Shown piece after piece: positions 7,901-29,824 of a DNA stretch of 29,888 nt. Numbering within the stretch: position 1 is the first letter of the stretch; each line of letters begins with the position of its first letter. Source of the DNA: Baffinella frigidus (lineage: Eukaryota > Cryptophyceae > Cryptomonadales > Baffinellaceae). The notes beneath the pieces are model-generated. The model was not told where the DNA came from, ran no database searches, and worked only from the letters and a program-made list of their open reading frames with translations. The DNA is taken from the NCBI GenBank assembly GCA_026770585.1, contig MU646321.1:275521-305408 (forward strand), in the 5' to 3' direction. Both the position numbers and the translations under genes were made by a program.

Positions 7901-10120
7901 ATGGGCCGCAAGCGCACAGCACAGCCCTCGGGGAACGCACAGGGCAAGGCGGCGCGGACATCAACGCCAGAAAGCCCTCCGGGGCTGGTGGACGGGGAGG
8001 CAGCCGATGAAGCAGCAGGAGATATAGTCGGAAATCTCTTGCTGGAAAGCATCCCGGAGCTGCCACTGTCGTGCTGCTCCGCGCACACAAGTCAGGACGC
8101 CGTGCTACGCCTCGAGCAGCTTGGCTTCACGGTGCTACCAGGGCTTCTCTCTCCGAGTGACTGCGACGCGATCCGCGCGCTGGTTGACAGCGCACGAGGC
8201 AAGGCGTCAGACGACGACTACACGCGGATCCACAACCCGCGCCTTCGCAAGGATCTGCCGCTGCGGCTTCACCCCTTCAACGGCGCGCTCGCCACGCTCT
8301 TCAGCGCACGCGGCGGGCTGCTCAAAGCGGTTCTGGATGAGGCGGTTCGACCCACCGCGCGGCTCGTGGAGTTCGCGGCCATGACAATCCTGCCTGGAGC
8401 TCCCGCGCAGCCCGTCCATCAAGACGTGCATCAAGCGACGATTGTCGAGGCAGAAAACGCACGGTACATCACGGTGTTCGTCTCGCTCTGCGACGTGCCG
8501 GAGGTGCAGGGCCCGATGGAGCTGTGGGCGGGCACGCACCGCCTCTACATCCCGTGGGAGGAGGCGCCGCCAGCGGACGACGACTGCGCGTGCAGCGAGA
8601 GCGAGGACGGGGACGAGAAGTCCGAGGCCATCGACGAGTCGTCCGCGCGGCGTGCAGATGTCGGCGACCCTGAACCCTAGACCCTGAACCCCAAACCTCA
8701 ACCCCTAAACCCTAAACCCTAAACCCCACGCCCTAAACCCTAAACCCTACGCCTTAAACCCTAAACCCTCAGCCCTAAACCCTTAACCCTACACTCTAAA
8801 CAAAGGATTTCATCCCAAACCCTGACCCAGGACGCCCTAAACCCTACACCCTAACCCAGGTCGGCGAGCACACCTACGTGCAAGGGGCGACGGCGGGCGA
8901 GCCCCCCTCGGGGCTGGCAGCGCTCACGCTGGCGCACATGCGGCGGGGGTTGGGGCGCGTGAGGCTGACTGTGCGGAAAGGCGACGTGTACTTGGTTGAC
9001 CCGCGCGTGCTGCATCGAGGCAAGCCCCTAAAGTTAAAAACCTAAACCCTAAACCTTGCACCCTAAACCCTAGACCCTACACCCTAAGCTCTAGACCCTA
9101 AACCCTAAACCCTAAACCCTAAACCCTAAACCCTAAACCCTAAACCCGAAACCATCAACCCTAAACCATAAACCATAAACCCCAAGCCCTAAACCCCAAA
9201 CTCCAAACCCTAAACCCTCAACCCTACACCCTACACCCCAAACCCCAAACCCCAAACCCCAAACCCCAAACCCCAAACCCCAAACCCCACACCCCAAACT
9301 CCAAAATCCAAACCCTAAAACCCAAACCCCAAACCCCAAACCCTAAACCCTATACCCCAAACCTCAAACCCCAAACCCTAAACCAGGCACGGAAAACTGC
9401 GCCGCCGCCGCGAAACAGATGTTCTACCTCTCGTTCGAGCAGAGTGAGAGGCCCTAAACCCCGAACCCTGACCCCTACCCTTTAACCCTACCCCCTACTC
9501 CTTAACCCCCAACCCCTAAACGCTCATGTTCTACCTCTCGTTCGAGCAGAGTGAGGGACCCCACACCCCGAACTCTGCCCCCTACCCTTTAAACCTACCC
9601 CCTACTCCTTAACCCCCAAGCCCTAAACGCTCATGTTCTACCTCTCGTTCGAGCAGAGTGAGGGACCCCACACCCCGAACCCTGCCCCCTGCCCCCTAAC
9701 CCCTAACCACTAAACCCTAAACCCTGACCGTTAACCCCTAACCCCTATTGTAGTTTTCGGTTCAGCGCGGATTTTCCCAAGGTCGGGTCATCTGTAAAAA
9801 CGAGAAAAATGTATCATCTTATGGGTGGGGGGTGCATCTTGTCATCAAATCAATGCATCAGAGGCATAAAAATTTAGATGGGCGCAAAAATTATCGACAT
9901 TTTTTCGATTCTCCGACCTCCCGACCCCGACCCAAGATCCACGCTGACCCGAAAACTACAAAAAACTCTGAATCCTAAACCATAAACCCTAAACCCTCAT
10001 CCAGGCGAGGGCAAGCGGCGGCTCCTCGGGTCCACTGATTCGATGCTCGAGGAGTACAAGGGCAAGTTCTCACTGCATGATATCTGCGAGGCTGTTGCCA
10101 GTTTCCCGAAGAGATCGTGA
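7901..10120 (+). CDS. Phytanoyl-CoA dioxygenase (PhyH)-family Fe(II)/2-oxoglutarate oxygenase, 4 exons
   Basis: Exons 7901-8659, 8860-9019, 9387-9443 and 10005-10120 join in phase to a complete 363-residue protein ending in TGA. Residues 1-70 are a polar, probably disordered leader. The PhyH-like fold starts at LEQLGFTVLPGLLSPSDCDA, a typical opening of this family. The metal-binding HxD motif is His173-Gln-Asp175 (PVHQDVHQ). The distal His is H305 in DPRVLHRG, followed by KQMFYLSFEQ, which matches the usual strand after the distal His; Lys stands where many relatives have the 2-oxoglutarate-binding Arg. The family hydroxylates lipids or small metabolites with Fe(II), O2 and 2-oxoglutarate; the substrate here cannot be told. 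An acidic insert (CACSESEDGDEKSEAIDESS) lies between motif and distal His. Intron 2 uses a GC donor (9020) with an AG acceptor. An in-frame TTG at 7880 is not needed; ATG 7901 is the better start. Introns 1 and 2 are almost pure CCCTAAA-like repeat. Confidence 0.87.
8660..8859 (+). other. PhyH intron 1 with duplicated 8-bp boundary
   Basis: This 200-bp intron is mostly degenerate CCCTAAA. The first eight bases of the intron, GTCGGCGA, are repeated exactly as the first eight bases of the next exon (8860-8867). The donor GT is therefore part of a direct repeat that looks like a target-site duplication, as described for introner insertions. Confidence 0.7.
9020..9386 (+). other. PhyH intron 2, GC-AG type, CCCTAAA/CCCCAAA filled
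   Basis: A GC donor (CGAG|GCAAGC) and AG acceptor (CCAG|GCACGG) are required to keep HRG-TENCAAAA in frame. A short repeat AGGCA occurs on both sides. The interior is degenerate heptamer repeat with the C-rich strand as sense strand. Confidence 0.7.
9419..9663 (+). repeat. Three tandem copies of the 3' part of PhyH exon 3
   Basis: The stretch encoding MFYLSFEQ plus the donor region occurs at 9419-9450 (the real exon), 9528-9559 and 9632-9663. The spacing is about 105 bp. Each copy is followed by a similar CCCC-rich filler. The downstream two lack an upstream acceptor and are taken as intronic exon fragments. Confidence 0.85.
9748..9960 (+). mobile_element. Foldback element in PhyH intron 3
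   Basis: The terminal inverted repeat begins TTGTAGTTTTCGGTTCAGCG at the left and is mirrored at 9960. Arms are about 50 bp and imperfect, including GGTCGGGTC and its complement. The interior has no ORF. Confidence 0.75.
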
Positions 10121-10129
10121 TTTTGGAAG

Positions 10130-11123: not shown

Positions 11124-11298
11124 CTCTCTCCCTACCACTCAGCAGCGGCCGAGTTCCTTTCCCCCCGGACATCCGGGGGAAATGCGGTTAGCATCCAATT
11201 CAAATGGATAAGATTCTAGTACAAATAGTTTTGATGAACTGTATCCGTGAAGCCCTCGGTGCCTGCTATGTGGCTCCGAAGGCGGGGGGTCTGAACGC

Positions 11299-11518
11299 TA
11301 CAGGGGTACCTCGCTCATAAAATTTGAGAAACAGGTACATGTACCGACCGTTTTTGAGATTTTTCTTAAATTTAAGAATCGGGAACCGACCGTTTTCGAG
11401 ATTTTTCTTAAATCTAAGAATCGGGTACCGAGCGTTTTTGAGATTTTTCTTAAATTTAAGAATCGGGTACGGAGCGTTTTCAGAATCCCCGCTTCTTATG
11501 AGCGAGGTACCCCTGTAC
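11299..11518 (+). mobile_element. Foldback family 'GGGGTACCTCGCTCATAAG', copy 2, with internal 41-bp repeats
   Basis: The ends match copy 1. The interior holds three to four tandem units of about 41 bp (GACCGTTTTTGAGATTTTTC plus TTAAATTTAAGAATCGGG). Each unit is itself partly palindromic. Confidence 0.9.
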
Positions 11519-11529
11519 AAGCTCCACGG

Positions 11530-11698
11530 ATCACGCGGAGTCTCTTGTCTTCCATTAGGTTTACCGAAACGGATGAGCAGGCCTTAGAAGGACCAGAGTT
11601 TCCAGTCAACTCTCTTAAGTGAATCTACTTCGGAGGCCTAAGTGAATCTACATTGGCGTCCTCATAACCTTGCGTCCTCAGATGCCCTTAGCGCCTAC
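11530..11698 (+). repeat. Direct repeat of about 200 bp, copy 2
   Basis: See copy 1 at 10918. It lies between two members of the GGGGTACCTCGCTCATAAG foldback family. Confidence 0.85.
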
Positions 11699-11700
11699 AT

Positions 11701-11835
11701 GTACAGGGGTACTTCGCTCATAAGAAACCAACCCCCCCCAGGACCCTACAGTAGGACCATACGTAGGGCCCTATGGTGGTCCTAGCTAGGGGGGTGGGCG
11801 TCTCTGAAGAGCTTGCTGAAGAGGTACCCCTGTAG
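11701..11835 (+). mobile_element. Foldback family 'GGGGTACCTCGCTCATAAG', copy 3
   Basis: Ends GTACAGGGGTACTTCGCTCA and AGAGGTACCCCTGTAG. The interior has CCTACAGTAGG-like and GGACCATACGTAGGGCCC palindromes and is unrelated to the interior of copy 2. Confidence 0.87.
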
Positions 11836-12597
11836 ATACCCACAGGGGGGCGAGCAGCTTGTTTCACGTCACGTCAGAACCCCCCTCGGCGTCTCACAGA
11901 TAGACTCAGATCCTAGCCCCACAACAACAACCCCATCCGCTCGGTAGGCTACGGGGTACGTCCCTCCCCGGAAATCCGGGGAGGGACGCGACAAATTGCC
12001 GACTTTTGGCGTGTTTCTTGGGCCAGAAACCAATAATTAACTTAAGCACGGTTCCTCGTAGTGTTCCGAGTGGACCCTAACCCCTACGAAAGCGCTCGTC
12101 GCCGCGCCACCGCAATCGCCGCCACCTGCCGATAAGTTGACAATATATGTCAAAAGTTACCGATGCTCCAAAGTTGATGATGCTAAACTTGACGATGCGG
12201 GTACCACGCCAGGCCACACGAGGGAATTCGCCTAAAGTTGATTCTGGAAATTTGAACCAAACGTGTACCAGAAACACGCCAAACGTCAACAGCCCGCCGC
12301 CGCAACAATGTGGAATCTGTACCACGAAATAACTTTAAAGCGAAACGTTGCGTTGCAAAATGCAGAGAAACGTTACGTTACCAACCCGGCCGAATCGGTC
12401 ACGTTGCCCGCGAACACTTCGCGGGCAACGTGGCCAACCCCGTACAAACCTGGACGCGAGCGTAAAACCAACATTTTAAAAAGGTCTTACCTAGCCTGCT
12501 GAGCCTCGAATTATCGGGTGGTCCCAACCGAAAAGCGAAACGCCGAACCCGAAATCCACAACCCTACAACCGAAACCGCCTTCGCACGAGCCCGACA
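11836..12597 (+). other. No gene recognised; small palindromes
   Basis: Perfect palindromes include 11960-11987 (GTCCCTCCCCGG / CCGGGGAGGGAC) and 12399-12433 (CACGTTGCCCGCGAA / TTCGCGGGCAACGTG). AAGTTGA-TGATGC repeats occur at 12165-12200. ORFs are short and unconvincing. Confidence 0.5.
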
Positions 12598-12765
12598 CTG
12601 AGGCTGCGACGCGCACGACACCGCCCGCCCCCGCTGCGGTACGAGACCGGGTTCTCATGCGACGGCCTACCGTAGCCAACACTGTAGGCGCACCCTACCG
12701 TGAATCGCCTCGTAGGCGTGTTCTCCTGCAGGGACAATAGCGCGTGTATTGATCGCGTGGCACGA
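12598..12765 (+). repeat. Inverted duplicate of 14598-14762
   Basis: About 165 bp match the complement of 14762-14598 with few differences. The segment includes the exon part TRKTPPAPAA plus its GTACGA donor, so one exon fragment now lies on the opposite strand, just 3' of the gene's stop. Confidence 0.9.
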
Positions 12766-12830
12766 CGGATCCACTCCCCACCAAGAACGCTTCACATGTA
12801 CAACGTGGCGATTCTAAGCAGAGGAATTGA

Positions 12831-13400
12831 TCAGCCTGGAGTGGGTGGGGGGAGCACCAATCCCACAGCGAGCAGCGCCGCACCGAGGGCCCCCATAGCT
12901 CCCATACCCCCGCCGCCCGCCCTCCCCTTCCCTGTTTCCACCACCGCTGGTTTCGCCGCAGCTTTCGGTTGTGCTGGTGCCTGGTCGGGTGGAGTTGGTG
13001 TGTCAGAAGTGTGTGTGTGTGGGTGGGTGGGGGGAGAAATTGTCGGCCGCCTTTCCCTCCCCTGCTGCCACCACCGCTGGTTTCGCCGCTGGTTTCGGTT
13101 GTGCTGGCGCCTGCTCGGTGGGAGTTGGTGGGTCAGAAGTGTGTTCGTGGGCGGTTGTGGAGGGAATTATCGGCCGCCTCCCCCTTCCCTGCGTCCACCA
13201 CCGCTGGTTTCGCCTCTGCTTTCGGTTGTGCTGGCGCCTGCTCGGTTGGAGATTGTAGGTCAGCAGTGTGTGTGTGGGTGGGTGGGGGGAGAAATTGTCG
13301 GCCGCCTTTCCATCCCCTACGTCCACCACCGCTGGTTTCGCCGCTGGTTTCGGTTGTGCTGGCGCCTGCTCGGTGGGAGAGGGTGGGTCAGAAGTGGGGG
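12831..13400 (-). repeat. Four tandem copies of the terminal exon of the Ala/Pro/Lys-rich gene
   Basis: Acceptor plus exon start (AG|GC.CCAGCACAACCGAAA on the minus strand) recur with exon starts at 13365, 13237, 13110 and 12980, a period of 127-130 bp. The outer copies encode APAQPKPAAKPAVVAAGEGK-like peptides. The copy at 13237 carries small differences. Only the last continues into the Gly-rich tail and the stop codon. GTGTGTGTGGGTGGGTGG-type sequence separates the copies. Confidence 0.88.
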
Positions 13401-16149: not shown

Positions 16150-16290
16150 AAGAAAACGGTTTTAATTTATAACTTTCTGGCAACGAAATTTACTACACAT
16201 AATGAGTTTTACTAGTAATATTAAAACATTCGTGTAGTAATTGTCGTTGAACCCAAAAGTTTTGAATCAAAACGGTTTTCACATGAGATC
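16141..16290 (+). mobile_element. Foldback element overlapping the putative start of the Ala/Pro/Lys-rich gene
   Basis: AGATCTCATAAGAAAACGGT at the left is mirrored by AAACGGTTTTCACATGAGATC at the right. An inner arm is ACGAAATTTACTACACA. The candidate ATG at 16149 lies inside it, which weakens that start. Confidence 0.82.
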
Positions 16291-17044
16291 GGAACGTTTA
16301 TGTTCGAGGTACTGTTTGAGCATTGCTCTGCAAAAAGACATGCTCTTAACCGATATTATTTCTGGTCGACATTTCTTTCGAAGCCCACCGTGTGGAACGC
16401 ACCTTTTATTGTTATGTGTGAAGTAGCTGATGCAGAGAAATGGCACTGCTCTGCACTCCTGCAAACTGTTCTAGCTGCGCATCGGTCGGGCTGACGGACT
16501 ATTCTTAAGTTGACGTTCTGTGTGCGGTACGGTACATATCCGTTGACTTTTGGGGTTGAAAATATCCCGGTCTGATCAAAATGGCGAGACAAAAACAGAG
16601 AGCGAGACAGTGCGAAAGGATGAGCCCAGAAATGACTCAGGCAGAGCTAGGTATCGCGCGAGATTCCCCCATACGACTCTCTTCGATTCGACGCCAGGTA
16701 CTGGAAATTTGAGAACGCGCCGTTTCGTTTCGTGGTACTAAATGAGTGTGTCGTGACCGGTGAAAACGCAGCTCCTCGTCCTTTCCACGTCCGCGCTTGT
16801 ACTTAGAATCGAAAAAAATCGGCGTACCATTAAAAGCAAGACTTGTAACTGAACTTCCACTTGACGACCTGGCGTGGTATGATACAAGACAATTGATACG
16901 ACTTCAATTTGGGTTATAACTTCTAGAACTTGTAAAGAGACGAAATAGTTTAATGATACGGCAGGGTTGGTCCCGCGCAGTCAGCGTGATGGCGCGCACC
17001 TCCTTGGGGTGATGGGTGACGCGGGGCAGCGATCTAGCGCTGTC
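16291..17044 (+). other. No gene recognised
   Basis: An ORF from 16581 (MARQKQRARQCERMSPEM) of about 42 codons could be a first exon ending at CGCCAG|GTACTG, but no following exon is found. AAGTTGACG/CGTTGAC words are scattered. The sequence is less repetitive than its surroundings. Confidence 0.35.
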
Positions 17045-17720
17045 TCAGTTTATTCGGGCGCATCGGTGAGCCCGGGCTCTGTCCCACTCCAAAGTTGACG
17101 GATGTGTACCGCAAACCCAGCACGCCAACGTGAGAAGATTCTGCCAGTCAACCCGGGCGAGGCAGGGCCAGACCTCGCTGGGCTGGGCGGCCGGCTGCTC
17201 GCGGATGGAGCTCAGCGACGGCGGTGTCTCACTGGGAGGAAAGAGATGATGCTGGTCGGGGACGCCCGGAGACGCGGGAGGCGTCCAGGACACGCTGGTC
17301 GCGTCGGCGGCCGGGGTGCTACCGCTCTTCTTCACCATGACGGTGTCCACTTTTAGCGAGCGGTCCATGCGCCCCGAGTCCCACTTGACGGCGCACGTCA
17401 GCTGGGAGTCGTGGATGTGCGTGAGGGAGCCGACGCCTTGCCACCGCTGCCCGGGGCGCATTACGACGCGCGAACCCTCCTGTCAAAGGAAAGGCGTTAC
17501 TGCGTGCTGAGGGGAACGCGTTGCTGACGACGGCTCTGGAGAACCCCCTTGTCCAACCAGCACACGACCATCGGGCGGATCGAGACCCTGAATGAGTCCT
17601 CCCGATAAATCGGGAGGATGGGTTGTGGCCGAACAAGGATCCTTCTTGGAATCCACCACTTTTTGCACGCGAGCGGTGAGTGCCATACAAATCTCTGCCA
17701 ACCAAGCAGCGAGGAGATGG
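17045..17720 (-). CDS. Poorly resolved minus-strand gene with SH3/tudor-like stretch
   Basis: The best-supported exon starts at 17479 after TTTGACAG and reads EGSRVVMRPGQRWQGVGSLT, then a VKWDSG turn. This pattern resembles small SH3/tudor-like or MIB/HERC2-type beta barrels (weak, from motif shape only). It stays open to 17045, but its last 25 codons lie in a dispersed repeat, so the true end may be earlier. Upstream, the frame beginning MAEICMALTARVQKVVDSKK (17701) is open to TRSPQHA. Joining it in phase to the exon needs removal of only 21 bases (17500-17480, GT...AG), unusually short; a different upstream exon is equally possible. The gene would be divergent to Rpn3, whose ATG is at 18085. 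Function unknown. Confidence 0.3.
17050..17130 (-). mobile_element. 75-bp dispersed repeat 'GTTGACATGCTGGGTTTGCG', copy 1
   Basis: On the minus strand it contains GTGCTGGGTTTGCGGTACA, CCGTCAACTTTGGAGTGGG and AGAGCCCGGGCTCACC. It is shared with 19268-19352 and 24703-24790. Confidence 0.88.
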
Positions 17721-18084
17721 AGGACGGGGCGTTGAGAAAGAGAAGCCGCTCGATCCCTGCATGAGGCGCAAGAACGAGGGAAAACAATGTGCTTCCCAGT
17801 GATCCAGCAAAGAAGCGGCGTGTTGGTGTCGCGTATTGTTTGGAAGGGGGAGGGGGAGGGGGGGGTATGTGACCTCCAGCACGGCTTCCTGCAAGTTTGG
17901 AGACTGCATCGGGGGTGAGTTGAGGACCCCAGACATGCGACCGATCAGCCGGCGGTGCCGCGGATTTGGAAAATTGAAAATGCATACATTTGCGCAAAAG
18001 TTGACATCAAGTTGACTTCTGGCTCCAAAGTGGCCCCCGGATTTCACCAGGTGTCCGCTTTCGAAGCCCTTCCCAGCTCTCGCG

Positions 18085-19989
18085 ATGGGACGTGGGGGCG
18101 CAAGGACGTCTGCTGACGATGCTCAAAATGCCAAGGACAAGGCGGAGAAGGCTGCTAACCCCACCGGGAAGAAGAAGGAGGCGCCCAAGCCCCTGGACCC
18201 GCTCACGATTGCCATGAACGGTACGTGCCGCCGGCGGAACCCGCCAGATTTCGGAACTGGTGTGCAGCGGCGCAAATCCGCCCCGACAAAGTGGCTTACT
18301 GTACGCTGTAGGTCGTGCGTAGGCGGCTGGTGGCAGGTAGTCTGTCCATGGGATGCTTCTGGCGGCTAGCAAGTGGTGCATTTGTGAAGGGTCTAGGGGA
18401 TTTGAAGAACAGTACCCGACCCGGACAATGGAGCGCGGGATCGCGCAACCGAACCTCTCCAGCTCAACCTTTTCGAGACGGGGGCTGGGTGCGGTACATG
18501 TCGAATCGGCGGTGCGAGCTGGCTCGCACGCTAGGGCGTCTTCCCCTTTCGCGGACGAGGAAGCCTGGCCTGGCAGAGGGGCAAAATGCGCTGCTCCGCT
18601 CTTTGCACGATGTTGCTGGGCGTGCAGAATCTCCCCCGACAAAACATACCCCATCCGCTCCCTCCTCGAAACCCCCCCCTTCCCCCCCACCTCCTCGACG
18701 CTGACGCCTACCCCCGCCCTTGCGTCCGCCGACCATGACGCGCGCCTCCCCCTCCGGCAGAGCTGAAGAGCGCGATGCAGACGATGGACAAGGCGGTGGC
18801 GAGCAAGGAGGCGCGCTACATGTCGCGCGTCATCCGCATGGTCCTTTCACCCCCCCCTGAAATTCAACCACGCGCAGCTGAAATTCAACCAAGCGCGGGT
18901 GTTCCCCCCCCCAAAAAAATCGACCTGAAACCTGAAACCCGAAACCAGGTCACCAAGCTCCGCCGCATGCTCTCCAAGGCCGTCCTCACCAAGGTCCTAC
19001 CTGACACCTCCCTCAACCTAAACCTAAACCTAAACCTAAAACGTCCCTAATGCGTAAACCTAAAAAATCCCCAAATCTTAACCCTAAAGCATCCCTAAAC
19101 CTAAACTAACCCTGAGCCTAGCCCCCAAGCCTCCGCCCCCCCCCCAACGCTGACGCGTGAAGCCCCCTCCTTAGGTGGGGGCAGAAGCACCCCCCCCCCA
19201 TTTGCATGGCATCCAAAAGGGCATGTGCAGGGAACAAAGTTTAGCTCTGCCTCACTTTCCACGGACTTTTCTCAAGTTGACATGCTGGGTTTGCGGTGCA
19301 AAGCCGTCAACTTTTGAGCGGGAAAGAGCCCGGGCTCATCAATTTGGTGAGCCCAAGATGTACGTACCCCCCACAATCGAATGCACCCTAGCGCATCCCA
19401 CCTGAACCCTACACCCTCACCCAATTCTTCAACCCTCGCACCTACACCCTACCCTGCACTAGGCGATCGAGACCTACATGACGGCGGACTCGGCGGTGCG
19501 CTATCTTCAGGGTATAATTTGCTATATTATCCCCGCAATGGCTTTACCATAGCACTAGGACAGATAGCGCGCCGCCGCTTAGCGCACCGCCGCTATCTGA
19601 AGATAGCGCACCGTCTTCAGGGTATAATTTGCTATATTATCCCCGCAATGACTTTACCGTAGCACAAACGCCACCCCTACGACAGCAAAAAAAAACTTAA
19701 CTCGAACGCGCCCTGGAGCCTTCCGTCTAAACCCTAACCCCTCCATCCAGGCGATTGAGGATGTGTAGGGGCCCCTAACCCCTAAACTCGAACTCACCCG
19801 AAAGCCTTCCGCCTAAATCCTAACCCCTCTGCCTGCCCGCTGTCTGCAGGCGATTGAGACGTACGTCGGGGTGGACTCGGCGGTGCGCGCGGCGATGCTC
19901 GAGGCCATTTCTGGCATCGTCGATCCCGAGCCTATGCAGGTGCCGCCTTCCTCTCTCTCTCTCTCTCGTTCTGTCTCTCTCTCTCTTTC

Positions 19990-20020
<31 letters not shown>

Positions 20021-23000
20021 CCTTCTCTCTCTCTCGCTCTCTCGCTTTCTCTCGCTCTCGCGCGCTCTCTCTCTAGGGTCTAGGTGTTAGAGTCGTACGT
20101 CGCTTAGGGTTCAGGCGGGATGCGCGGCCATGCTCGAGGCCTCTCTGGCATCGTGGATCCCGCGCACATGCAGGTACAGCACTGTCAGAGAATTTGCCCG
20201 CAGGGATAATGCCAACGTGGCAAACGTTGGCGGTGCAGGTAGATCTAATACAGCTCACTGAATCAACGTGTGTAGTGTTTAGTGTAGTGTTGAGTGTTTG
20301 GGGGTTGGGGTTTGCTCGCAGATACGCAGATACGCAGCTGGATGAGGCCGTGCAGGTTATGGTTTAGAGTTTAGGTGACACTGCGCAATAGCTCGACCTG
20401 ACTACGGTCTAGGGGTAAGGATTTGCTCGCCGACTCAAGTGAAATTTTCCTGCTTCAACCCCTGCGCGGGTTAGGTATCGCTGCCTGACACGGCGTCGAT
20501 CCCGAGCCTATGCAGGTGCCGCCTTCCTCTCTCTCTCTCGGTCGTCCTCACACCGAGTGACGACCACGCCGTGACCTGCTCAGCTCACCCAACGTGCAAA
20601 CCCAGTGACCAGCTCAGCTCACCCGCTGTGGCGCACACAGCGTTTCCAAGGGCCTATGCAAATTGGTCACGTAACACCCCGGAATCAAGGGTCAACGGAA
20701 CCCTCGAAACCGTGTGGTTATGAAAGGGAAGACGCGGGTCACAGCGCGGGGTACAGAGAGGGGGTCTTGAGGTCTCATCCCGAAAAGGCCCGGCCTGGGC
20801 TACGCACCCACGGGTTTGGGGTTTGGGGTTGCCACCCCACTCCGCTGCGTCACCCTCACCATCCACACCCACCAACCTCTGACCTCCGTTGGGCGATTTC
20901 CGAACGATCCACTGATGAGTCAACTGCATCGATAGGTGGAAGTTGCGCCCGTGGCGGCATCTGGGGCGAAGGAGGGGGGTCACCACCCACACCCACCAAC
21001 CTCTGACCTCCGCTGGGCTGTTCCCGACCGCAGGTGGAAGTTGCGCCGGTTGCGCCGGTGGCGGCAGCACCCGCGGTGGCTGCTGGCGCGAAGGAGGGGG
21101 CGAAGCAGCGGGATCACCATCCACACCCACCAACCTCTGGGCTGTTTCCGACCGCAGGTGGAAGTTGCGCCGGTTGCGCCGGTGGCGGCGGCGCCTGCGG
21201 CGGCGGCTGGCGCGAAGGAGGGGGACAAGAAGGAGGGGGAGGCGCAGGTTGATGACACGCCCGCTGAGAAGACGGTTTCACCCCTAAACCCTAAGCCCCA
21301 AATCCCAAGCCCTGGACCCTGAGCCCCAAACCCCAAACCCCAAACCCCAAACCCCAAACCCCAAACCTTACATCCCAAACCCTAAACAAAAAAAACAAAT
21401 ACCCTAAACACTAAACACTAAACCCGATACCCAAAACCCAAAATCCTAAACCCTAAACCCTAAACCCCAAACTCTAAACCCTAAACCCTAAACCCCACAC
21501 CAGGAGGAGGAGAAGGCGGAGGAGAAGACCAAGGAGAAGGAGGAGGCGGCCTTTTTCAAGAAGATGGTGCGGAGAACCCTGGACCCTAAACCCTAAACCC
21601 TAGACCCTAAACCCTATACCCTAAACCCTAAACCCTAAATCCTAAACCCTACAGGCGGGGATCCTAAAGCCTAAACCCTAAACCCTAACCCCTAACCCCT
21701 CAAGGTGGGGTACCTGAACCCGCAACCCTAAACTCCAAACCCGAAACTCCAAACCCTAAACCCTCAAGGTGGGGTTCCTAAACCCTATACCCTAAACCCG
21801 AAACCCTAAACCCGAAACTCTCAACCCGAAACCCCAACTAGGTGGGGATCCCCGAGGCGGAGGTGTTCGTGCAGCTGCTCGTCACGATATTCCTGCTCGA
21901 CCAGAAGGCGATGCAGGTTCATAGGGCAACGGCCTGACTTCAGGGTAGTTCAGCCTACGGCATTGACTGGATGCAGGTGCCTTCTCGCGTCCATTACGGT
22001 AATGGACACGTGTTTGCGCCGGGGAAGGGGTTGTGGAGGTGTGGTGTGTGGGGTGTGCGGCTTGCGGGGCCGCACACCCCTTGAACCCACCACGACCTTC
22101 TTGATGAAGATGGTGGGTGTGCCCGAGGCGGAGGTGTAGGGTTTGGAGGGGTTCGTCTAGCTGCTCGTCACGATATTCCTGCTCGACCAGAAGGCGATAT
22201 TCTCCTGGAGGGTGAAAATCGGACACACGTTTTATTTTGTGGTTCCACATATTTTATATTGGACTTGCAGCTGGTTTCATGGATTTGTACTGAGGCTGGG
22301 GGAACGTGGCGCGGAATTTCTGGGCCACGCAACGTTTCCCGCCTGAAAGTAGGGACTTTTAGGAAGAAATCGGTGTTAAAAAATCCTTGTCTCATGCTCG
22401 AGTGTTCCGAAATTGGCCAGTTTAGTCAACAGCAAAACGGGCCAATTTAGTCAACAGCCGTTCGTGGGAACGGGGGACTCTCCACTCGAGGCTGGAAGAG
22501 GGGGTATTTTAAATGCGGGGTTGTTAAATTTAGTACCAGTCACGGGCATGCTTGGTCACGTAGCTCAAGCTATAACTTGAGCTACGTGACCAAATGCCCC
22601 TATTTGTATGAAAATTACTACACATCCCCCCCCCCCCTTTCACTTGTAAAAGAAGCTCTGTTTTGAAATGGTCCCATTTCTAGCCTCGAGTGGCTGAACA
22701 GGGGGCGATGGGAAACTCTGAACCAGATCGATAAGTTTGAAGGTGTGGTGTGTGGGGTTAGTGGGTTAAGGCTTAGGGCTGTTTAGGGACTAGGGTCCAG
22801 GTGTTAGAGTTCAGCGTAAATATGCTAGGGCTTTGAATGAAACCCTGTTTTCTACCGTGTGGTTAGATGAGTTCAACAGTTGACATTTGAACCGCGATGC
22901 AGGGGGCTTCTCCCACTGTGAGGCACGTTCTGAAGGGTGTCAACTTAGACGAGGTCAACCGTTGACATTTGAGGCGCGATGCAGGGGGCGTCTCATCCCA

Positions 23001-26000
23001 ACGCAGGTTCTGAAGGAGGTCAACTTAGATGAGGCCAACAGTTGATATTTGAATGAGATCTAACAGGTTATTTTCACCCAAACCAAACTCAAACCAGGGG
23101 AGGGGGGCTTAAATTCTGAAGGATGTCAACTTAGATGAGGCCAACAGTTGACATTTGAATCGCGATGCAGGGGGCGGTGGCGAGCTCGGCGCTCCTCATC
23201 CAGCGCGCGACCTCCTTCAACCGCAGGTTACGAGCCCCTCTCAACCCCACACCCTCAACCCTCAACCCTCAACCCTCAACCCCAAACCTCAAACCTCAAA
23301 CCCCAAACCCCAAACCCCTCCTTCAACCGCAGGTTACAAGCCCCCCACCCGTAGATGACAACTTAGATGGGTGATGGCAACTTAGATGAGTTCAACAGAC
23401 GGCTCTGGACTGGCCACGATGGCCCCCCGCGTTCTCAATTCCCATCCGAGTCCTCTGAAAGCTCTGAAAGAAGTTTTACGCTGCCATTTGCAGATCTCTG
23501 ACACAGACAGGTTTTGGGCCTTCGACCGCGGGTGCAACCCCACACCATACGAATGTCGGTCGACTGGGGGGGGAGGGGGGGTAGAGTTGAGGATTCGGGG
23601 TTCAGGGATTCGCTGCCCCGCTCACCTGCGTGGGTGGATGGGTGGTTGGTTCCGGATGGGCGGACCAGCTGCCGGATGTCAACTTAGACGAGGTCGACCG
23701 TTGACATTTGAGGTGAGATGAAGGGCGCATCCCGGCCACGTTGGGGAGGTCACACGAGAGAGAAGATAATCTCGAGGGACCTACCCAGAGTCGTATATAA
23801 CCGAGTATACAACGTATACGAAGATAAATGCCTCCTGGTGCAGGACAGTGCACCAGCTGCCCTGTCCCTAACCCGAAACCCGAACCCCGACACCCGAAAC
23901 GCTGCAGGACAATGGACCAGCTGCAGTCGCGGGGGTACTTCTACTGGGCGCGGTGCATGGAGCTGATGGGCAAGTCGAGCGAGATCCGCCACGAGCTTCT
24001 CACCGCGTGCGTGCCCCTGAACCCTTCCGTATTGTACGTATATGCGGTGTTGGGTGTACATATATTCGGTGTTTGGTATACGTATATGCGGTGGTGGATG
24101 TACGTATATGCGGTGTTGGGTACGTACATTGGTGCTTGTACTGGGCGCGGTGCATGGAGCTCATGGGCAAGTCCCCCGAGATTCGCCACAAGCTTCTCAC
24201 CGCGTGAGTGCCCCCTCCTCAAGTGCTCCTCCCCCATCTTCAACCTCCCCAATCCCCCCAAATCTTCCTAAACATTTCCTAACCCTTCCTAAACCTTCCT
24301 GAACCTTCCTGAACCCCAAACCCTGCCCCCCACGCGCCTGTCGTTTTTATCCCTGGACCCTAAACCCCACACCCTAAACCCTAAACCCTAAACCCCTAAA
24401 CCGTAAATCCTAAACCCTGGTGCGGCAACAGGTACCGGACGTGCTCGCTGAAGCACGACCAGGTGGGGCAGGCGACGCTCCTCAACCTCCTCCTCCGAAA
24501 TTACATGGAGTTCAACCTCTACGAGCAGGTCTGTACCGCGCATGAGCCCTCAGAGCTTAGATACCCACACAGCCTAGGTGCCCTTAGATTAGAGCCTAGA
24601 TACCCACACGCCAAAACCGATGTTTCCATTTTGAAGTTCAACCTCTACGAGCAGGTCCGCACACACACAAACCCTACACCTGGCGTTAGGTCGGGTTGGC
24701 TGAACATTCCTAAGTTGACATGCTGGGTGGGTGGTGCAAATCCTTCAACTTTGGAGTGGGGAAGAGCCTGGGTTCACCAGATTCGTGAGACCTCCTCAAG
24801 CGCCTGCTCCGAAATTACATGGAGTTTTGGGGGTGCATCCATGTAATATTATACGTATATGCAGTGTTAGGTGTACGTATATTCGGTATTGGGTACGTAT
24901 ATGGTGCCTCAACCTATTCGAGCAGGGCCGTACACAAACCCCTAGCGCTGCCTGAGCAAAACTGGGCTCGCCATACAAGCATGTTAGTTGCCCTGTTGTG
25001 CTGAAGTTTCTGCTCTACATGTGTTTTAGTACGAGCACAGTTTTTCGTAGGCCCAAAAGAGTGCTGTTTCGGTGTCCAACCTAGTATCTCGAATGCCCAG
25101 TTTCCTCTTAATCCTGTTAATAACTTCTTTTCTGAGACAAGAACCCGCCCCCCCTAGCTGAAACGAACAGGCCTGTGCCGTGCCGACTCAGCCCGTACCA
25201 CACGGTGGACTACGGACCTTTCAGCAAGAGTCAACTTGCCCCGGCGCAATTAACTTAAGGCATGTATCTAGTGCAAATTCGGGTACCGCTAAATCTAGGG
25301 GGCCCGAAACCTGGGTAGCCCACCGTGTCCCTCGGGGGATCCTAGGACCAAAAAGTCTCGGCCTACGGCAGGAGGTCCTAGGCAATGCCGTAGGCCTAAC
25401 TACCCCATTTTCAGGCCGTTACCCTATTAACACGGCCCGCACGCCCAGCGAGCGGTGTGCAGAGAAGGCGGCCGCCGAATCATGCAAAACTCGTGGGAAG
25501 TTGGCGAGTGGTGAGGGCTGGGAGAGGTTTCCCTCTCAGGCGGACACGCTGATGTACAAAACGACCCCCCCTGAAACCAGGCAGACAGTGTGTGGTGGTC
25601 GGCGAACGAATCAACCGCACCCCTTACGGCAGGCGGACACCCTGATGCGCAATAAATGCAAAATTCGTGGGAGGTTGGCGAGTGGTGCGGGCTGAGAGAG
25701 TTGTCCCTCGCAGGCGGACACGCTGATGCGCAAGACGGCGTTCCCCGAGGGCGACGCGTCGAACAACCAGGTTCCCGATTCCTGAACCCTACACTCTAAA
25801 CCCGTACTGAGTTTGAACCCTAAACCATAAACCATAAACCATAAACCATATGATGTATTTGTTAAGGGGGTTTCAGCCTACCGACATTAAACCATAAACC
25901 CCAAACCACAAACCCCACACCCCCAACGCTAAGCTCCCAACCAACAAGCAGCTGGCGCGGTACCTGTACTACACGGGGCGCATCATGGCTTATTGTTTAT

Positions 26001-29000
26001 TGATTTAGGGTTCAGGGTCCAGGGTCCACCGCTTGCTGCACATGTTTTTTCGAGGGCAGCGTTGGTGGCGTTGTCAGCGCCGGGTGGGGTTCAGGATTTT
26101 GGGTTAGGGTTCAAAGTTCAAGGTCATAACTCAAGCTCCCAACCAACACGCAGTTGGCGCGGTACCTGTACTACACGGGGCGCATCAAGGCAGTCCAGCT
26201 CGAGTACACCGACGCCTTCCGGTCCCCTCCTAAACCCTCAATCCTCAACCCTACCAACCCCTAAATCCCAAACCCTGAACCCTAGATGGAAACGCCCTCG
26301 GTTTGTTAGTAGAGGGGGCGCGCGAGCTGGTTTTTGGTTGGGAGATTGGGGTTTAGGGTTAGGGTTTGGGTTTGCTGGACGTCCAACAGTCGTGGTGGGC
26401 GGTACCTGTACTAACGGGGCGCATCAAGACGGTCCAGCTCGAGTACAGCGACGCCGTCCGGTCCCCTCCTAAACCCTCAATCCTGAACCCTACCAACCCC
26501 TAAATCCCAAACCCTGAACCCTATACCCTGAACCCTGAAACCTCAACCCTACACTTCAAACCACGCGACGCGCTGGCGTGCCTGACAAAACCTCTTGTCT
26601 GGAGGAAACAGGAACTTGCAGCAAGCGCAGCGCCGCAGGCACTCGAGAGGAGTGCGGTGGATGCTCAAACGCCTAACAAACCCTCTTTCCCGGAGGACAG
26701 GACTATGCAGCAAGCCCTAGACCCTGAACCTTGAATACACTTAGCAGGAACCTGCAGCAAGCTCGCACGCGAGGTGTGCAGTGGATACTCGAGGTCTCTC
26801 TGTTCCTGTTGCAGAGAGAGACCTTGCTGCAGCAAGCGCAGCGCAAGGCCCCGCAGGCGTCCGCGCTCGGCTTCCGCAAGACGGTCCACAAGTTCCACAA
26901 CCATCACCCCTCACAAAACCCTGGACCCTAACCCCCCACGCGGAGCAGGCACCTGCAGCACGCGCCAGGCACTCGGGAGGTGTGCTGTGGGCGCTCAAAC
27001 ACGAGCCTGATAACCCAAACCCTCTTTCTCCGAGGACAGGAACATGCAGCTAGCCATAAACCCTCAACCCCAAACCCTGGAAGCAGGAACCTGCAGCAAG
27101 CGCAGCGCAAGGCCCCGCAGGCCTCGGCGCTCGGCTTCCGCAAGACCTCAACCCTCAACCCGAAACCCTGATCCCGGATCCCGGATCCCTGATTCCTGAT
27201 CCCTGCACACTAAACCAGGAACCAGCAGCAAGCGCAGCGCTCCCGTCATGACATGCGCTGAGGTGTTCTGCTGCTCACACACACTCTCCCGCGAACCTGG
27301 CAGGAACCTGCAGCAAGCGCAGCGCAAGGCCCCGCAGGCGTCGGCGCTCGGCTTCCGCAAGACGGTCCACAAGTTCCAGATCATCGTCCAGCTCCTCATC
27401 GGCGAGATCCCGGTGAGCCCCTACCAACATCAACAACCGGGTAGTTAAGCCTACGGTATTGCCTACGATAGGCCGTAGGACCCTAGGGGGGGTCCTATGA
27501 AACATAGATCCTGGGGGCCCTGCGGCCTACCGTAGGCAATCCGTAGGCCTAACTACCCGGTTGCAGGTTGTAGCGCAGCGCATGAGCACCAACATCATCT
27601 ACCAACATCATCAACCAAAGTACCAACATGTGCTGCACTACAACCTGCAACCGGAACGCTGGGACCTCAACGCGCCCAGCAGCACGCGGGGATGAGCGTA
27701 GTGGTGAACCGCAGCACGCCTCTGAAGACGCCATACGCGAACTCGAACCCCGACACCATGCCCCCTTGACGTCAAAACATCCCTATGAAGTTGAGTATCT
27801 CCAAACCCTGAATCCCGAACCCTCAACCCCTGCACGACACAACAGGACCGGTCGACGTTCTCGCAGAAGGGCATGGTGGAGTCGCTCCGGCCCTACCTCC
27901 ACATCACCCAGGTCTGCGCCCGAAACACGAAACCCGGAAGCACGAATGAACCCTCAACCCGCAACCCTCACCCCTCACCCCTCACCCCTCACCCCTCACC
28001 CCTGATACCGCCTGAACCCTCAACCCTTAACCCTCAACCCTAAATGACCCCTGAACGAAGTCTGAAACCTGAAACCTGAAACCTGAAACCTGAAACCTGA
28101 AACCTGAACGCTACCTCGACTGAACCCTGGATGAACGCTAAACCCTACACCCTGAATGAACCCCGAATGAACCCTGAGCCCTGAGCCCAGAACCCTGAGC
28201 CCTGAGCCCTGAACCCTGAACCCTGACCAGGCGGTGCGTGTCGGAGACCTCACAGCCTTCCACAAGGCCATGCAGGTGCTCCTCGACGCGAGTTAGCTCT
28301 GTCTAAGTCTGTTTTTTTTCTGAAACCAAATAATAGCCATGGCCATGCAGGTTTCACGCCGGAACCCTGGGTGTATCAGAACACTGTGTGGTTTCGTTGA
28401 GTCGGGTTTGATGCCAGAACACTGCCTGCTGTCGTTTACACGCTTTGGCATGCACCTGCACCTGGTGCTCCTCGACGAGGACCTCACCGCGTTCCACAAG
28501 GTCATGCAGGTTTCGCGCCAGAACACTTGTTGATTTCCTGGTTGATTTCCCTTGGTTGCTATTTGTTTCCAGCGTCGTTTCCCAGTCGATGACAGGGCCG
28601 TGGGCATTTTTTTGGTTTCAGAATGGTTTGTTCGGTTACAGGGATCTCACCGCCTTGCTCTAGGCCAAGCAGGTTGACGCCAGAACACTTGTTGGTTTCG
28701 TTGTTTCGCTGTTCGATTACTACCGGGTTGTTTCATATTCGGTTTCGACGTCGCAGACTATTTGATTTTGGTGTTCGTGTTGTTCGGTTCCTCTTTCTAC
28801 CCAGCACAGCCTACCGTAGGCAATACCGTAGGCCCAACTACCCGGTTTCCAGGACGTTGCCCCATTAATGCGCAATAATGTTTCGTTCGTACCAGGGACC
28901 ACTTTTACACGGAAGGGGGCCTCACGCGTATCCCTTCAGTGACCAGTAGGCTCATACGCCCTACCGTAGGGCCCTAGGACCTGCCTAGGGCTTCCACGGG

Positions 29001-29824
29001 CGATTATTCGCCCGTTGGTCACCTAAGGGATACACAGAACAACCTCACCTCTAACGCCAAATCCGAAACTAGGAGCACGGGGCGGTGTTCAAGGCGGACA
29101 AGACCTACTCGCTGATCGCCCTAAGCCCTAATCCCCAGTCCCTGAACTCTGAACCCTAAGGGTGCGAGCTTTAACCTTAACGCAACACACGGATATTTAC
29201 TGTGATAACGCAACACACGGATATTTACTGTGCAACACACGGATATTTACTGTGATCCCGTGATGCACAGGAGCACGGGGCGGTCTTCAAGGCCGACAAG
29301 ACCTACTCGCTCATCGTGCGGCTGCGCCACAACGTGATCAAGACGGGCCTGAAGAAGATCAACACCGCTTACTCCGCCATCACCCTCACGGTGACTTTTG
29401 GCGAAGTGGGTGTGGGTTGTGTGATTTTTCTAGTAAAGTGGCCGATGTGTGGTACAAATAATAGAAAGACGTACTCGCTGATCGTGCGGTTAAGGCACAA
29501 CGTCACCAAGACGGGCCTCAAGAAGATCAACACCGCCTACTCCGCGACCACCCTCACGGTGACTTTTGGCGAAGTGGGTATGGATTTTGCGGTTTCTCTC
29601 GTAAAGTGGCCGATTCCTGGTACAAATAATAGAAAGACTCTGTTTCGCCAGCTCGACCCTAATCGCTTTTGCTTAACCCCCCCCCCCGACGGTCAGCACG
29701 AATACATAGAGATTGAGATTAGATCAATAAATAAATTATGGTTATTACTGTCTGATCGCGTACCTAGTAATAACCCTGAACCCGGAACCCGAACACAGGA
29801 CGTGTGCGCGAAGCTCGGGCTGGA
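18085..29824 (+). CDS. RPN3: 26S proteasome regulatory (lid) subunit Rpn3/PSMD3, 17 exons, C-terminus outside window
   Basis: Exons: 18085-18220, 18761-18840, 18949-18993, 19850-19939, 21158-21274, 21504-21566, 21842-21916, 23171-23226, 23908-24006, 24432-24528, 25714-25770, 26154-26221, 27304-27412, 27846-27911, 28231-28275, 29271-29390 and 29799-29824. They join without a phase break into 449 codons. Hallmarks of the family: [20 protein letters not shown] (about 267-286), [20 protein letters not shown] (306-325), RKAPQ...ALGF (about 335-346), LLIGEIPDR (about 358-366), [15 protein letters not shown] (about 412-426). Rpn3 is a PCI-domain lid component of the 19S particle and acts as scaffold in ubiquitin-dependent proteolysis. 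The human protein has 534 residues, so about 90 C-terminal residues are missing beyond the GTAAGT donor at 29825. Residues 118-177 are Ala/Pro/Glu/Lys-rich and look like an insertion. Most exons have partial copies in flanking introns. Confidence 0.93.
18221..18760 (+). other. Rpn3 intron 1
   Basis: This 540-bp GTACGT...GGCAG intron is one of the few introns here without heptamer repeats. It ends in a long pyrimidine tract (CCCCTTCCCCCCCACC type). ORFs on both strands within it look incidental. Confidence 0.7.
19268..19352 (+). mobile_element. 75-bp dispersed repeat, copy 2 (Rpn3 intron 3)
   Basis: Contains AAGTTGACATGCTGGGTTTG, GCCGTCAACTTTTGAGCGGG and AGAGCCCGGGCTCATC. The inner GTTGAC/GTCAAC pair could form a hairpin. 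Confidence 0.88.
19503..19667 (+). repeat. Direct repeat with palindromic spacer interrupting an exon-4 echo
   Basis: About 50 bp beginning TCTTCAGGGTATAATTTGC occurs at 19505 and again at 19613. Between them GCTATCTGAAGATAGC and related GCGCACCGCCGC units form a small palindrome. The first copy sits exactly where the exon-4 fragment stops. Confidence 0.8.
19952..20075 (+). repeat. (CT)n microsatellite downstream of Rpn3 exon 4 donor
   Basis: About 125 bp of imperfect CTCTCT follows the donor of exon 4. A short form follows the exon-4 echo at 20528-20540, so the tract was copied together with the exon end. Confidence 0.9.
20936..21274 (+). repeat. Three copies of Rpn3 exon 5 start ([13 protein letters not shown])
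   Basis: Copies begin at 20936, 21034 and 21158, each after an AG. Each is preceded by the same CACCCACCAACCTCTG sequence. The third is full length and is used in the model. The first two end after the GAKEG codons and run into intron-like sequence. Confidence 0.88.
21275..21841 (+). repeat. CCCTAAA/CCCCAAA heptamer arrays in Rpn3 introns 5 and 6
   Basis: Degenerate heptamers fill both introns around exon 6 (21504-21566). GGTGGGG-T-CCTAAACC units recur at about 21656, 21703 and 21767; they are echoes of the exon-7 acceptor and start (AG|GTGGGGATCC). Confidence 0.85.
22096..22198 (+). pseudogene. Echo of joined exons 6 and 7 of Rpn3, without the intron
   Basis: TTCTTGATGAAGATG (exon 6 tail FFKKM-like) runs directly into GTGGGTGTGCCCGAGGCGGA (exon 7 start VGVPEAE). 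The 275-bp intron that separates them at the real locus is absent. Exon 7 is then split by about 15 bp of TAGGGTTTGGAGGGG before the [14 protein letters not shown] part resumes. It also has an in-frame TAG. Confidence 0.72.
22485..22690 (+). mobile_element. Foldback element with CTCGAGGCTRGAA ends
   Basis: The ends are inverted copies of CTCGAGGCTGGAA. Arms continue through TATTTTAAA/TTTGAAATG. In the middle, 22551-22592 is a near-perfect palindrome around TTGGTCACGTAGCTCAAG. Confidence 0.85.
22865..23170 (+). repeat. TCAAC repeats preceding Rpn3 exon 8, with exon-8 start echoes
   Basis: Units of the type GTCAACTTAGATGAGG-CAACAGTTGACATTTGAA recur at about 22870, 22938, 23020 and 23126, and again near 23678. 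Each contains an inverted GTCAAC/GTTGAC. Several end in CGCGATGCAG|GGGGC, the exon-8 acceptor, at 22903 and 22985 as well as at the real 23171. Confidence 0.85.
23317..23332 (+). repeat. Echo of the 3' end of Rpn3 exon 8
   Basis: TCCTTCAACCGCAG followed by GTTACAAGCCCC repeats the exon-8 end and donor at 23213-23232. CCCTCAA/CCCCAAA repeat precedes it. Confidence 0.85.
23846..24203 (+). repeat. Echoes of Rpn3 exon 9
   Basis: The real exon is 23908-24006. A short acceptor-side copy starts at 23846 (GACAGTGCACCAGCTG). A donor-side copy spans about 24135-24203 ([20 protein letters not shown]) and has a better donor (GTGAGT) than the real exon (GTGCGT). The intervening DNA has four TACGTATATGCGGTG-type units (24036-24125). 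Confidence 0.88.
24635..24925 (+). repeat. Echoes of Rpn3 exon 10
   Basis: Fragments lie at 24635-24654 (FNLYEQ plus donor GTCCGC), 24792-24824 ([11 protein letters not shown]-like, no donor) and about 24908-24924 (LNLFEQ-like). The real exon is 24432-24528. Confidence 0.85.
24703..24790 (+). mobile_element. 75-bp dispersed repeat, copy 3 (Rpn3 intron 10)
   Basis: Contains AAGTTGACATGCTGGGTGGG, CTTCAACTTTGGAGTGGGG and AGAGCCTGGGTTCACC. It abuts an exon-10 echo. Confidence 0.88.
25365..25440 (+). mobile_element. Half element of the CCGTAGGCCTAACTACCC family
   Basis: GGCAATGCCGTAGGCCTAAC followed by TACCCCATTTTCAGGCCGTT resembles 28815-28865 and the right arm of the element at 27435. Confidence 0.75.
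25484..25770 (+). repeat. Tandem units carrying Rpn3 exon 11
   Basis: The unit TGCAAAA-TCGTGGGA-GTTGGCGAGTGGTG plus acceptor occurs at 25484 and 25657. Exon-11 starts (ADTLM) follow CAGs at 25540, 25633 and 25714. Only the last reads through to [10 protein letters not shown] and the donor. Confidence 0.87.
25952..26524 (+). repeat. Three copies of Rpn3 exon 12 with intron starts
   Basis: Copies lie at 25952-25985 (truncated after TGRI), 26154-26221 (real) and about 26396-26460 (one base lost in the YYTG region, no acceptor). The last two are followed by the same intron start, GTCCCCTCCTAAACCC, for about 60 bp. The duplicated unit therefore includes the exon and the intron beginning. Confidence 0.9.
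26610..27412 (+). repeat. Six echoes of Rpn3 exon 13 plus the real exon
   Basis: Copies begin near 26612, 26751, 26832, 26951, 27088 and 27217; the real exon is 27304-27412. The copies at 26832 and 27088 preserve [17 protein letters not shown] in frame. The others break after NLQQA or QQAQR. All are plus strand. Only the last reads on into [13 protein letters not shown] and a GTGAGC donor. Confidence 0.9.
27435..27562 (+). mobile_element. Foldback element with AACCGGGTAGTTAAGCCTAC ends
   Basis: Both ends are inverted for about 40 bp (AACCGGGTAGTTA-GCCTACGG). The interior is CCTAGGGGGGTCC and GGGGGCCC palindromes. It lies in Rpn3 intron 13. Confidence 0.9.
27945..28230 (+). repeat. CCCTCACC / CCTGAAA / CCCTGAG arrays in Rpn3 intron 14
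   Basis: Several local amplifications: CCCCTCAC x5 (27966-28003), CTGAAAC x6 (28059-28106), GAACCCTGAGC units (28150-28228). They look like drifted CCCTAAA heptamers. Confidence 0.88.
28231..28690 (+). repeat. Echoes of Rpn3 exon 15
   Basis: The real exon is 28231-28275 ([15 protein letters not shown]). Copies are 28338-28347 (end only), 28479-28509 ([10 protein letters not shown]) and 28641-28672 (with an in-frame TAG). Each donor is followed by a related intron start, GTTTCGCGCCAGAACAC type. Confidence 0.87.
28806..28865 (+). mobile_element. Half element of the CCGTAGGC-AACTACCCGGTT family
   Basis: CCTACCGTAGGCAATACCGT, then AGGCCCAACTACCCGGTTTC: the right arm of the 27435 element without its left arm. 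Confidence 0.85.
28928..29034 (+). mobile_element. Foldback element with GTATCCCTTCAGTGACCA ends
   Basis: The ends are inverted at 28928 and 29034. Inner CCTACCGTAGGGCCCTAGG / CCTAGGGC and GGGCGATTATTCGCCC make further hairpins. It lies in Rpn3 intron 15. Confidence 0.9.
29073..29560 (+). repeat. Echoes of Rpn3 exon 16
   Basis: A truncated acceptor-side copy is 29073-29119 ([15 protein letters not shown]), the full exon 29271-29390, and a donor-side copy 29466-29560 (from [12 protein letters not shown] onward). The third differs by few residues and is followed by the same intron start, GTGACTTTTGGCGAAGTGGG. It could in principle be an alternative exon. Confidence 0.88.
29182..29257 (+). repeat. 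Short tandem repeat before exon 16
   Basis: Three units of CAACACACGGATATTTACTGTG, about 24-27 bp each, lie just upstream of the exon-16 acceptor. Confidence 0.9.

Follow-up and report, generated by a model that had tools for sequence, protein, structure and literature searches.

Single duplications that cross an exon–intron boundary are known, and a close case is the potato RdRp gene, in which a boundary-crossing tandem duplication made an intron (PMC4974935). Like the Rpn3 gene of the cryptophyte Baffinella, whose introns hold partial copies of its exons (here called echoes), potato RdRp carries a direct tandem copy of an intron end plus an exon start, with the upstream exon piece turned into intron and the copies diverging, and the same gene has a second, intronic duplication. 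Potato thus offers two events, whereas in Baffinella 11 of 17 Rpn3 exons and 6 of 16 exon cores elsewhere are affected; the new potato intron is backed by phylogeny and RNA, whereas the Rpn3 echoes are observed in genomic sequence. Fill-in at break ends yields small tandem duplications in mammalian cells, involving CST-Pol alpha-primase (PMC8355091), and these resemble the echoes in being short direct duplications at one site, but they are described as short (<100 bp), whereas Rpn3 duplication periods (~100 to 580 nt) are mostly longer and come with spacers. Repair-mediated duplications in primates are likewise proximal, short and in some cases furnished with splice sites or exons; they differ in including one inverted exon copy, copies within 50 bp were excluded from them as tandem, and the excerpts of that study mention no polarity rule (PMC2671141). 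Interstitial telomeric sequences are inserted at double-strand breaks (PMC2246262, PMC7215372) and are intrachromosomal, as are the CCCTAAA-like arrays of Baffinella, which often lie between duplicated flanks; unlike them, the Baffinella arrays take up introns and show a strong strand bias with respect to the gene (CCCTAAA-like 14-mers, sense:antisense, 81:5 in Rpn3 introns and 59:0 in PhyH). Among the matches listed from the open-access literature, no title or opening of an abstract described intron saturation by exon fragments or telomere-like cryptophyte introns. What is unusual here is the saturation, together with CCCTAAA-like arrays among the copies that are mostly C-rich on the sense strand.

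The window, a 29,888-nt stretch of nuclear DNA of Baffinella frigidus (contig MU646321.1), presumably comes from strain CCMP2293. The genome of Baffinella sp. CCMP2293, placed with B. frigidus, is reported as 534.5 Mbp with 41.1% repeats, 6.1 times that of Guillardia, and the main text of that report never uses the word "intron" (PMC9756366). We modelled Rpn3/PSMD3, an essential gene of the 26S proteasome, in the window with 17 phase-consistent exons:

18085..29824, + strand: Rpn3 gene, 17 exons, incomplete at the window end
18085-18220, 18761-18840, 18949-18993, 19850-19939, 21158-21274, 21504-21566, 21842-21916, 23171-23226, 23908-24006, + strand: Rpn3 exons 1-9
24432-24528, 25714-25770, 26154-26221, 27304-27412, 27846-27911, 28231-28275, 29271-29390, 29799-29824, + strand: Rpn3 exons 10-17

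The model protein matches PDB chain 5vfp_V ("26S proteasome non-ATPase regulatory subunit 3", E 8.7e-91), and its best protein match is T484DRAFT_1765475 (P0001) of B. frigidus. Since exon 17 terminates at a GTAAGTG donor and relatives are ~100 residues longer by a count made by eye, Rpn3 extends past the window end. A protein search of the genome (382,457,362 bases, 1364 contigs) with the Rpn3 of a relative (P0004) gave seven matches, all seven within this window.

We defined an echo as a partial copy of an Rpn3 exon inside an intron, and compared the 17 exons by BLAST with the Rpn3 gene with its exons masked, using a cut-off of at least 28 bits. This produced 26 exon-to-intron matches, 24 of which scored at least 28 bits; all 24 were same-strand (sense) and all 24 sat in an intron adjoining the parent exon, as the original prediction had it, and the two sub-threshold matches both involved exon 5 (one minus-strand, one plus-strand). 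Dinucleotide-shuffled exons (100 shuffles) gave means of 0.03 same-strand (maximum 1) and 0.29 opposite-strand matches (maximum 4), and the real exons gave a single weak opposite-strand match in window positions 1-18000. Echoes were found for 11 of the 17 exons (4, 5, 7, 8, 9, 10, 11, 12, 13, 15 and 16), exactly the list drawn up from reading the sequence, which had put the number at no fewer than ten; of 1349 exon bases, 692 have an echo, and detectable echo makes up 991 of the 10,455 bases left unmasked in the gene region. Most echoes have their own flanks and have diverged from the parent exon, by up to ~21%, with a few short ones identical. Some also carry the start of the following intron, again as predicted, with 63 nt beyond the donor for exon 12, 33 nt for exon 4 and, in the best alignment, 37 nt for exon 16, whose tandem unit extends further. 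The echoes and their associated repeats, all on the + strand where a strand applies, are:

19461..19501, +: exon 4 upstream echo, acceptor side, 34/41 identical
20078..20175, +: exon 4 downstream echo, nearly whole, with donor, 80/93 aligned; start also found in the looser junction scan
20494..20548, +: exon 4 downstream echo, donor side plus 33 nt of intron, 52/55
20856..21113, +: exon 5, two upstream echo units of intron tail and acceptor side, repeating every 124-134 nt and continuing into the real exon
22094..22198, +: exon 6 tail fused to exon 7 without intron 6, downstream echo, ending 4 nt before the exon 7 donor
22863..23176, +: end of intron 7, 80-nt repeat units reaching the first nt of exon 8
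23238-23320: CCCTCAA array between exon 8 and its echo
23317..23344, +: exon 8 downstream echo, donor side, 27/28
23840..23857, +: exon 9 upstream echo, acceptor side, from the junction scan, under the BLAST threshold
24131..24214, +: exon 9 downstream echo, donor side, 75/84
24632..24654, +: exon 10 downstream echo, donor side, from BLAST
24792..24927, +: exon 10 downstream echo, split by an insert; BLAST match 24792-24826 linked by eye to a donor word at 24912
25482..25563, +: exon 11 upstream echo, acceptor side plus 58 nt of intron, 72/82
25629..25652, +: exon 11 second upstream echo, acceptor side, from BLAST and junction scan
25931..25989, +: exon 12 upstream echo, acceptor side, 56/59
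26399..26523, +: exon 12 downstream echo, nearly whole, with the donor side and 63 nt of intron, 120/125
26604..27240, +: exon 13 upstream echoes, all acceptor side; BLAST matches at 26612, 26748, 26827, 27087 and 27219, further weak ones in the junction scan
28480..28511, +: exon 15 downstream echo, donor side, 29/32
29071..29118, +: exon 16 upstream echo, acceptor side, 45/48
29466..29638, +: exon 16 downstream echo, head-to-tail tandem duplication of period 168, aligned copies overlapping by 5 nt

We then asked which part of the exon each echo retains, after merging the 24 matches to 22 echoes (the exon 5 pair into one and the exon 7 pair into one) and extending the second exon 10 echo by eye over its insert to the donor end (24912, junction scan). 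All 12 upstream echoes kept the acceptor side and lacked the donor side, and all 10 downstream echoes kept the donor side, ending within 6 nt of it (Fisher 1.5e-6 for the 22 echoes, several of which share a parent, so that events are not all independent). Three of the 10 downstream echoes, those of exons 4, 7 and 12, are nearly whole, and the exon 7 echo lies downstream yet keeps its acceptor side, stopping 4 nt short of the donor. No truncated copy among the 22 echoes lay on the wrong side of its parent exon. The claim that fragments keep either the acceptor or the donor side therefore stood, refined in that the side kept depends on whether the copy is upstream or downstream. A scan for junction words over exons 2-16 counted acceptor words at 15:0 (upstream:downstream) and donor words at 0:12, compared to 1 and 4 in all other introns; two further settings gave 12:0 and 0:6 (0 and 0 in other introns) and 11:0 and 0:6 (2 and 2). 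With looser settings, acceptor words numbered 14 to 18 upstream and 1 to 3 downstream, every downstream one falling inside a near-whole copy (exon 4, 7 or 12), and there were 9 to 12 donor words downstream with one upstream (exon 8, 22993, in a setting that gave 9 and 15 in other introns). Duplication of a whole exon accounts for the three near-whole copies, and the clean 15:0 is setting-dependent. The intron-7 repeat that ends at the exon 8 acceptor also has a 58-nt copy downstream, at 23674-23731, almost without exon sequence.

A duplication [a..b][a..b] across an acceptor places the truncated copy upstream, and one across a donor places it downstream, so tandem or near-tandem duplication over exon–intron boundaries must give this polarity, whereas free re-insertion need not. 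The view that the pattern is unlike tandem duplication is not supported, because the upstream/downstream rule is the geometry of sub-gene tandem duplication in which one breakpoint falls within an exon. We consider it probable that the echoes are halves left behind by many small direct duplications that arose independently, whether or not these took in an exon. A duplication across an acceptor would leave a left copy cut within the exon and a whole right copy, and one across a donor a whole left copy and a right copy without its 5' part; selection would retain only events that leave one complete exon, after which the truncated half would decay in the intron. Judging from known biology, the likeliest route would be staggered-break repair in which both overhangs are filled in and the ends then joined. 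Adjacent nicks in plants reportedly lead to small tandem duplications (Schiml et al. 2016), and re-replication or slippage may also be a route to them. Filler (CCCTAAA-like arrays, minisatellites, foldbacks) would often lie between the copies, perhaps joined in the same event, and later indels would widen the spacers.

In 14 gap-free stretches selected among the 22 echoes, mismatches numbered 10, 13 and 31 at the first, second and third codon positions, out of 227, 229 and 226 sites, respectively. Some third-position bias is already expected when a copy decays freely and its parent accepts silent changes only; the excess beyond free decay is borderline by a rough estimate, and some copies may once have been coding.

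The reading closest to the original prediction is local templated insertion, in which breaks in introns are filled with DNA copied from close by, through SDSA, polymerase theta or template switching. Proximal donors and spacers of hundreds of nucleotides agree with it, and 824 proximal duplications, some with splice sites and exons, are described in human (PMC2671141). However, templated insertion should place either exon side on both flanks and also yield pieces from exon interiors and some copies in inverted orientation, and with 0 of 22 truncated copies on the wrong side and 0 of 24 inverted we regard it as unlikely. Copying from the nascent or spliced transcript, by RNA-templated repair or retrocopying, would give sense orientation and locality; all 24 copies are sense, and in the echo at 22094-22198 exon 6 is fused directly to exon 7, with intron 6 absent. 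Its exon 6 tail part matches at 15 of 19 nt, a score equalled by none of 59,698 random windows, or at 16 of 24 nt over a longer piece of the tail, a score reached by 6 of 59,678 random windows, and this one echo may be a retrocopy of exons 6-7. But many copies contain intron sequence, the upstream/downstream rule would not follow from copying of RNA, and the looser scan of all 16 spliced junctions gave 3 hits (6-7, 10-11 and 11-12) compared to 41 over 256 mispaired controls, or ~2.6 per 16, while the stricter setting matched 1 of 16 (controls 23 over 256). We accordingly rejected intron-less junction copies as a class, their 3 of 16 junctions in the looser setting being not above controls, and a transcript origin of the echoes in general is very unlikely.

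A role for the copies as working exons, alternative or mutually exclusive, would fit the third-codon-position mismatch bias and the use of five of them as exons in the deposited T484DRAFT_1765475, but 19 of the 22 copies lack one splice side, the three near-whole copies show indels, an internal stop or the loss of one end (the exon 7 echo carries a stop), and the Rpn3 proteins of relatives P0002, P0004, P0006 and P0007 show no comparable duplications by eye, making this reading highly improbable. The published CCMP2293 assembly was built from Illumina reads with AllPathsLG (PMC9756366), and short-read assembly could in principle create false copies; yet most copies are diverged (up to ~21%) with flanks of their own, similar copies occur in other genes, and in our judgement an assembler is unlikely to create decayed, polarity-obeying copies, so an artefact is scarcely credible.

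We analysed repeat pairs across the window with simple repeats masked. Among direct repeat pairs, 67 of 74 lie less than 1 kb apart; inverted pairs number 25. Local direct repeats (<1.5 kb) cover 46% of exon bases, 27% of Rpn3 intron bases and 22% of the remaining non-simple bases of the window. In Rpn3, 13 of 30 local pairs touch exons compared to 9.5 by random placement (p=0.16), and exon-targeted copying was rejected for want of significant enrichment. The prediction that introns are built partly from exon DNA thus holds for the share of echo given above, but not in the sense of a process aimed at exons, and we take exons to be tracers of duplication because their parent copies do not drift. 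Pair identities span 69-100% over the 69 local pairs of the window, indicating duplications of mixed age, and the predicted recurrent local process is borne out as local, recurrent and spread over time.

Spacers between copies, inflated by the masking of simple repeats, have a median of 202 nt and are at most 10 nt in 4 of the 69 local pairs. Head-to-tail arrays comprise the 168-nt unit of exon 16 with its 5-nt overlap, a 107-nt unit in PhyH (x 2.7) and a 127-nt unit (x 3.7) at 12917-13396, and the two upstream units of exon 5 continue into the exon. Strict head-to-tail junctions are the minority, so that filler or subsequent indels have to be invoked, and spacers contain CCCTAAA-like arrays, a 22-nt minisatellite (exon 9) and other DNA. 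In random stretches of the genome, where 14 of 19 were all N and left five usable (four partly N), we counted 59 local direct and 28 local inverted pairs, 16 of the inverted pairs being foldbacks; this sample gives weak support for genome-wide local duplication.

Repeated small tandem duplication offers a simple, testable reading of how introns can grow, and perhaps arise, in a large cryptophyte genome, with exons acting as labelled tracers that make intronic tandem duplication visible. The polarity rule can be used in any genome to tell tandem duplication from templated re-insertion.

A second gene in the window behaves similarly, and two introns, one in each gene, consist almost wholly of telomere-like repeat:

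7901..10121, + strand: PhyH gene (T484DRAFT_1765473), from a protein match
8660-8859, + strand: PhyH intron 1, 95% CCCTAAA-like
9387-9443, + strand: PhyH exon 3, followed downstream by two donor-side echoes, at 9526 and 9633, with a period of 107
21567..21841, + strand: Rpn3 intron 6, 94% CCCTAAA-like

PhyH exon 2 has no echo, and a six-frame Pfam scan of window positions 1-18 kb found PhyH only. PhyH intron 2 has an apparent GC donor (GAG|GCAAGC) at 9019-9020, placed there by the reading frame and relative P0122. Beyond the window, we sampled 16 exon cores found with the Pfam TCP-1 model (10) and a proteasome model (6), adding 1.5 kb to either side as far as the contig reached. Same-strand echoes occurred at 6 of the 16 cores, giving nine matches, none inverted, compared to 0.016 matches per core for mononucleotide shuffles. 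By halves, all nine lay on the predicted side, six upstream of the 5' half and three downstream of the 3' half. These cores are HMM matches rather than exact exons, several belong to one gene and some copies possibly lie in the same exon; three matches at one core (L042) partly overlap and two of them reach only 72-74% identity, a stop interrupts L031 and L044, which are among the six cores with echoes, and core L029 is on an 11-kb contig. The sample supports generality beyond the window less firmly than the repeats within it, as support rather than proof.

The strand bias of the CCCTAAA-like arrays recurs around the 16 other exon cores (sense:antisense 290:10, overlapping loci counted more than once), where six of seven contigs with arrays are sense-dominated (the exception, C319, has 0:2) and C97 and C237 have no arrays. 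The arrays are mostly C-rich on the sense strand for genes on both strands, as at 21276-21839 and 8664-9390. In window blocks 1-6200 and 12900-16100 array orientation is reversed (4:84 and 0:41), which suggests minus-strand genes there. In 12 of 19 introns at least 60% of the last 40 nt are CCCTAAA-like, and the CTAA of the array could serve as branch point and its C-rich tract as acceptor context.

In Rpn3 intron 6 the acceptor/exon-7 start motif AGGYGGGGWWCC occurs at 21653, 21703 and 21767 in addition to the real site at 21840; these are its only four matches in the window, all within 200 nt, compared to a chance mean of 0.08. PhyH intron 1 opens with 8 nt, GTCGGCGA, identical to the start of exon 2. 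Intron gain by AGGT duplication would leave the splice junction directly repeated at the two intron ends; comparing such repeats in the 19 introns with mispaired controls gave p=0.004 in register, p=0.017 locally and p=0.025 over the first 10 nt, and p=0.54 over the last 12 nt, with PhyH intron 1 and Rpn3 intron 7 scoring highest; a direct-repeat signature common to all intron ends is only moderate in this 19-intron test, and we set that candidate aside. Array flanks scored a paired mean of 14.6 versus 9.3 mispaired (p=0.0002), a score inflated by repeat similarity near array edges, and since only 2 of 67 arrays exceeded the 99th percentile (0.67 expected) on this inflated score, we do not lean on arrays being flanked by duplications.

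As a tentative and rather doubtful proposal, telomere-like repeats together with local duplication might generate introns in this lineage. Broken coding DNA would be patched by a C-rich CCCTAAA-like array flanked by a duplicated piece bearing AG|GT, and the array would bring a ready branch point and acceptor context, so that splicing could remove the insertion at once. Candidate products would be PhyH intron 1 and Rpn3 intron 6, the latter also in view of the downstream echo that fuses exons 6 and 7. Against this proposal, the scan of spliced junctions came out no higher than mispaired controls, the 19-intron test is only moderately positive, and the exon 6-7 echo may be a retrocopy.

Echoes also affect annotation. 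The deposited T484DRAFT_1765475 takes five of them as exons, which adds 90 residues by alignment, and lacks nine residues of exon 5. The insertions are:

19463-19495, + strand: echo-derived insertion
21034-21075, + strand: echo-derived insertion
26824-26892, + strand: echo-derived insertion
28480-28509, + strand: echo-derived insertion
29469-29558, + strand: echo-derived insertion

The deposited protein ends in GLE, where the window reads GAG TAA, and because this end falls inside the likely GTAAGTG donor the deposited Rpn3 annotation is probably wrong. Gene models of such genomes can carry false repeats, as these five stretches illustrate.

Several further repeats in the window are of note. 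On the minus strand, the 127-nt unit repeated 3.7 times at 12917-13396 may hold an alanine/proline-rich exon, in which case tandem duplication may lengthen a protein. A cluster of direct repeats at 3544-4676 has units of 40-190 nt that are 72-95% alike. Foldback (inverted repeat) elements lie within Rpn3 introns at 22544-22599 and 27434-27563. A dispersed element of ~80 nt occurs in both orientations at 17065-17146, 19269-19354 and 24697-24792, its copies 78-87% alike; it has GTTGAC/GTCAAC near its ends by eye and is possibly a small mobile element.
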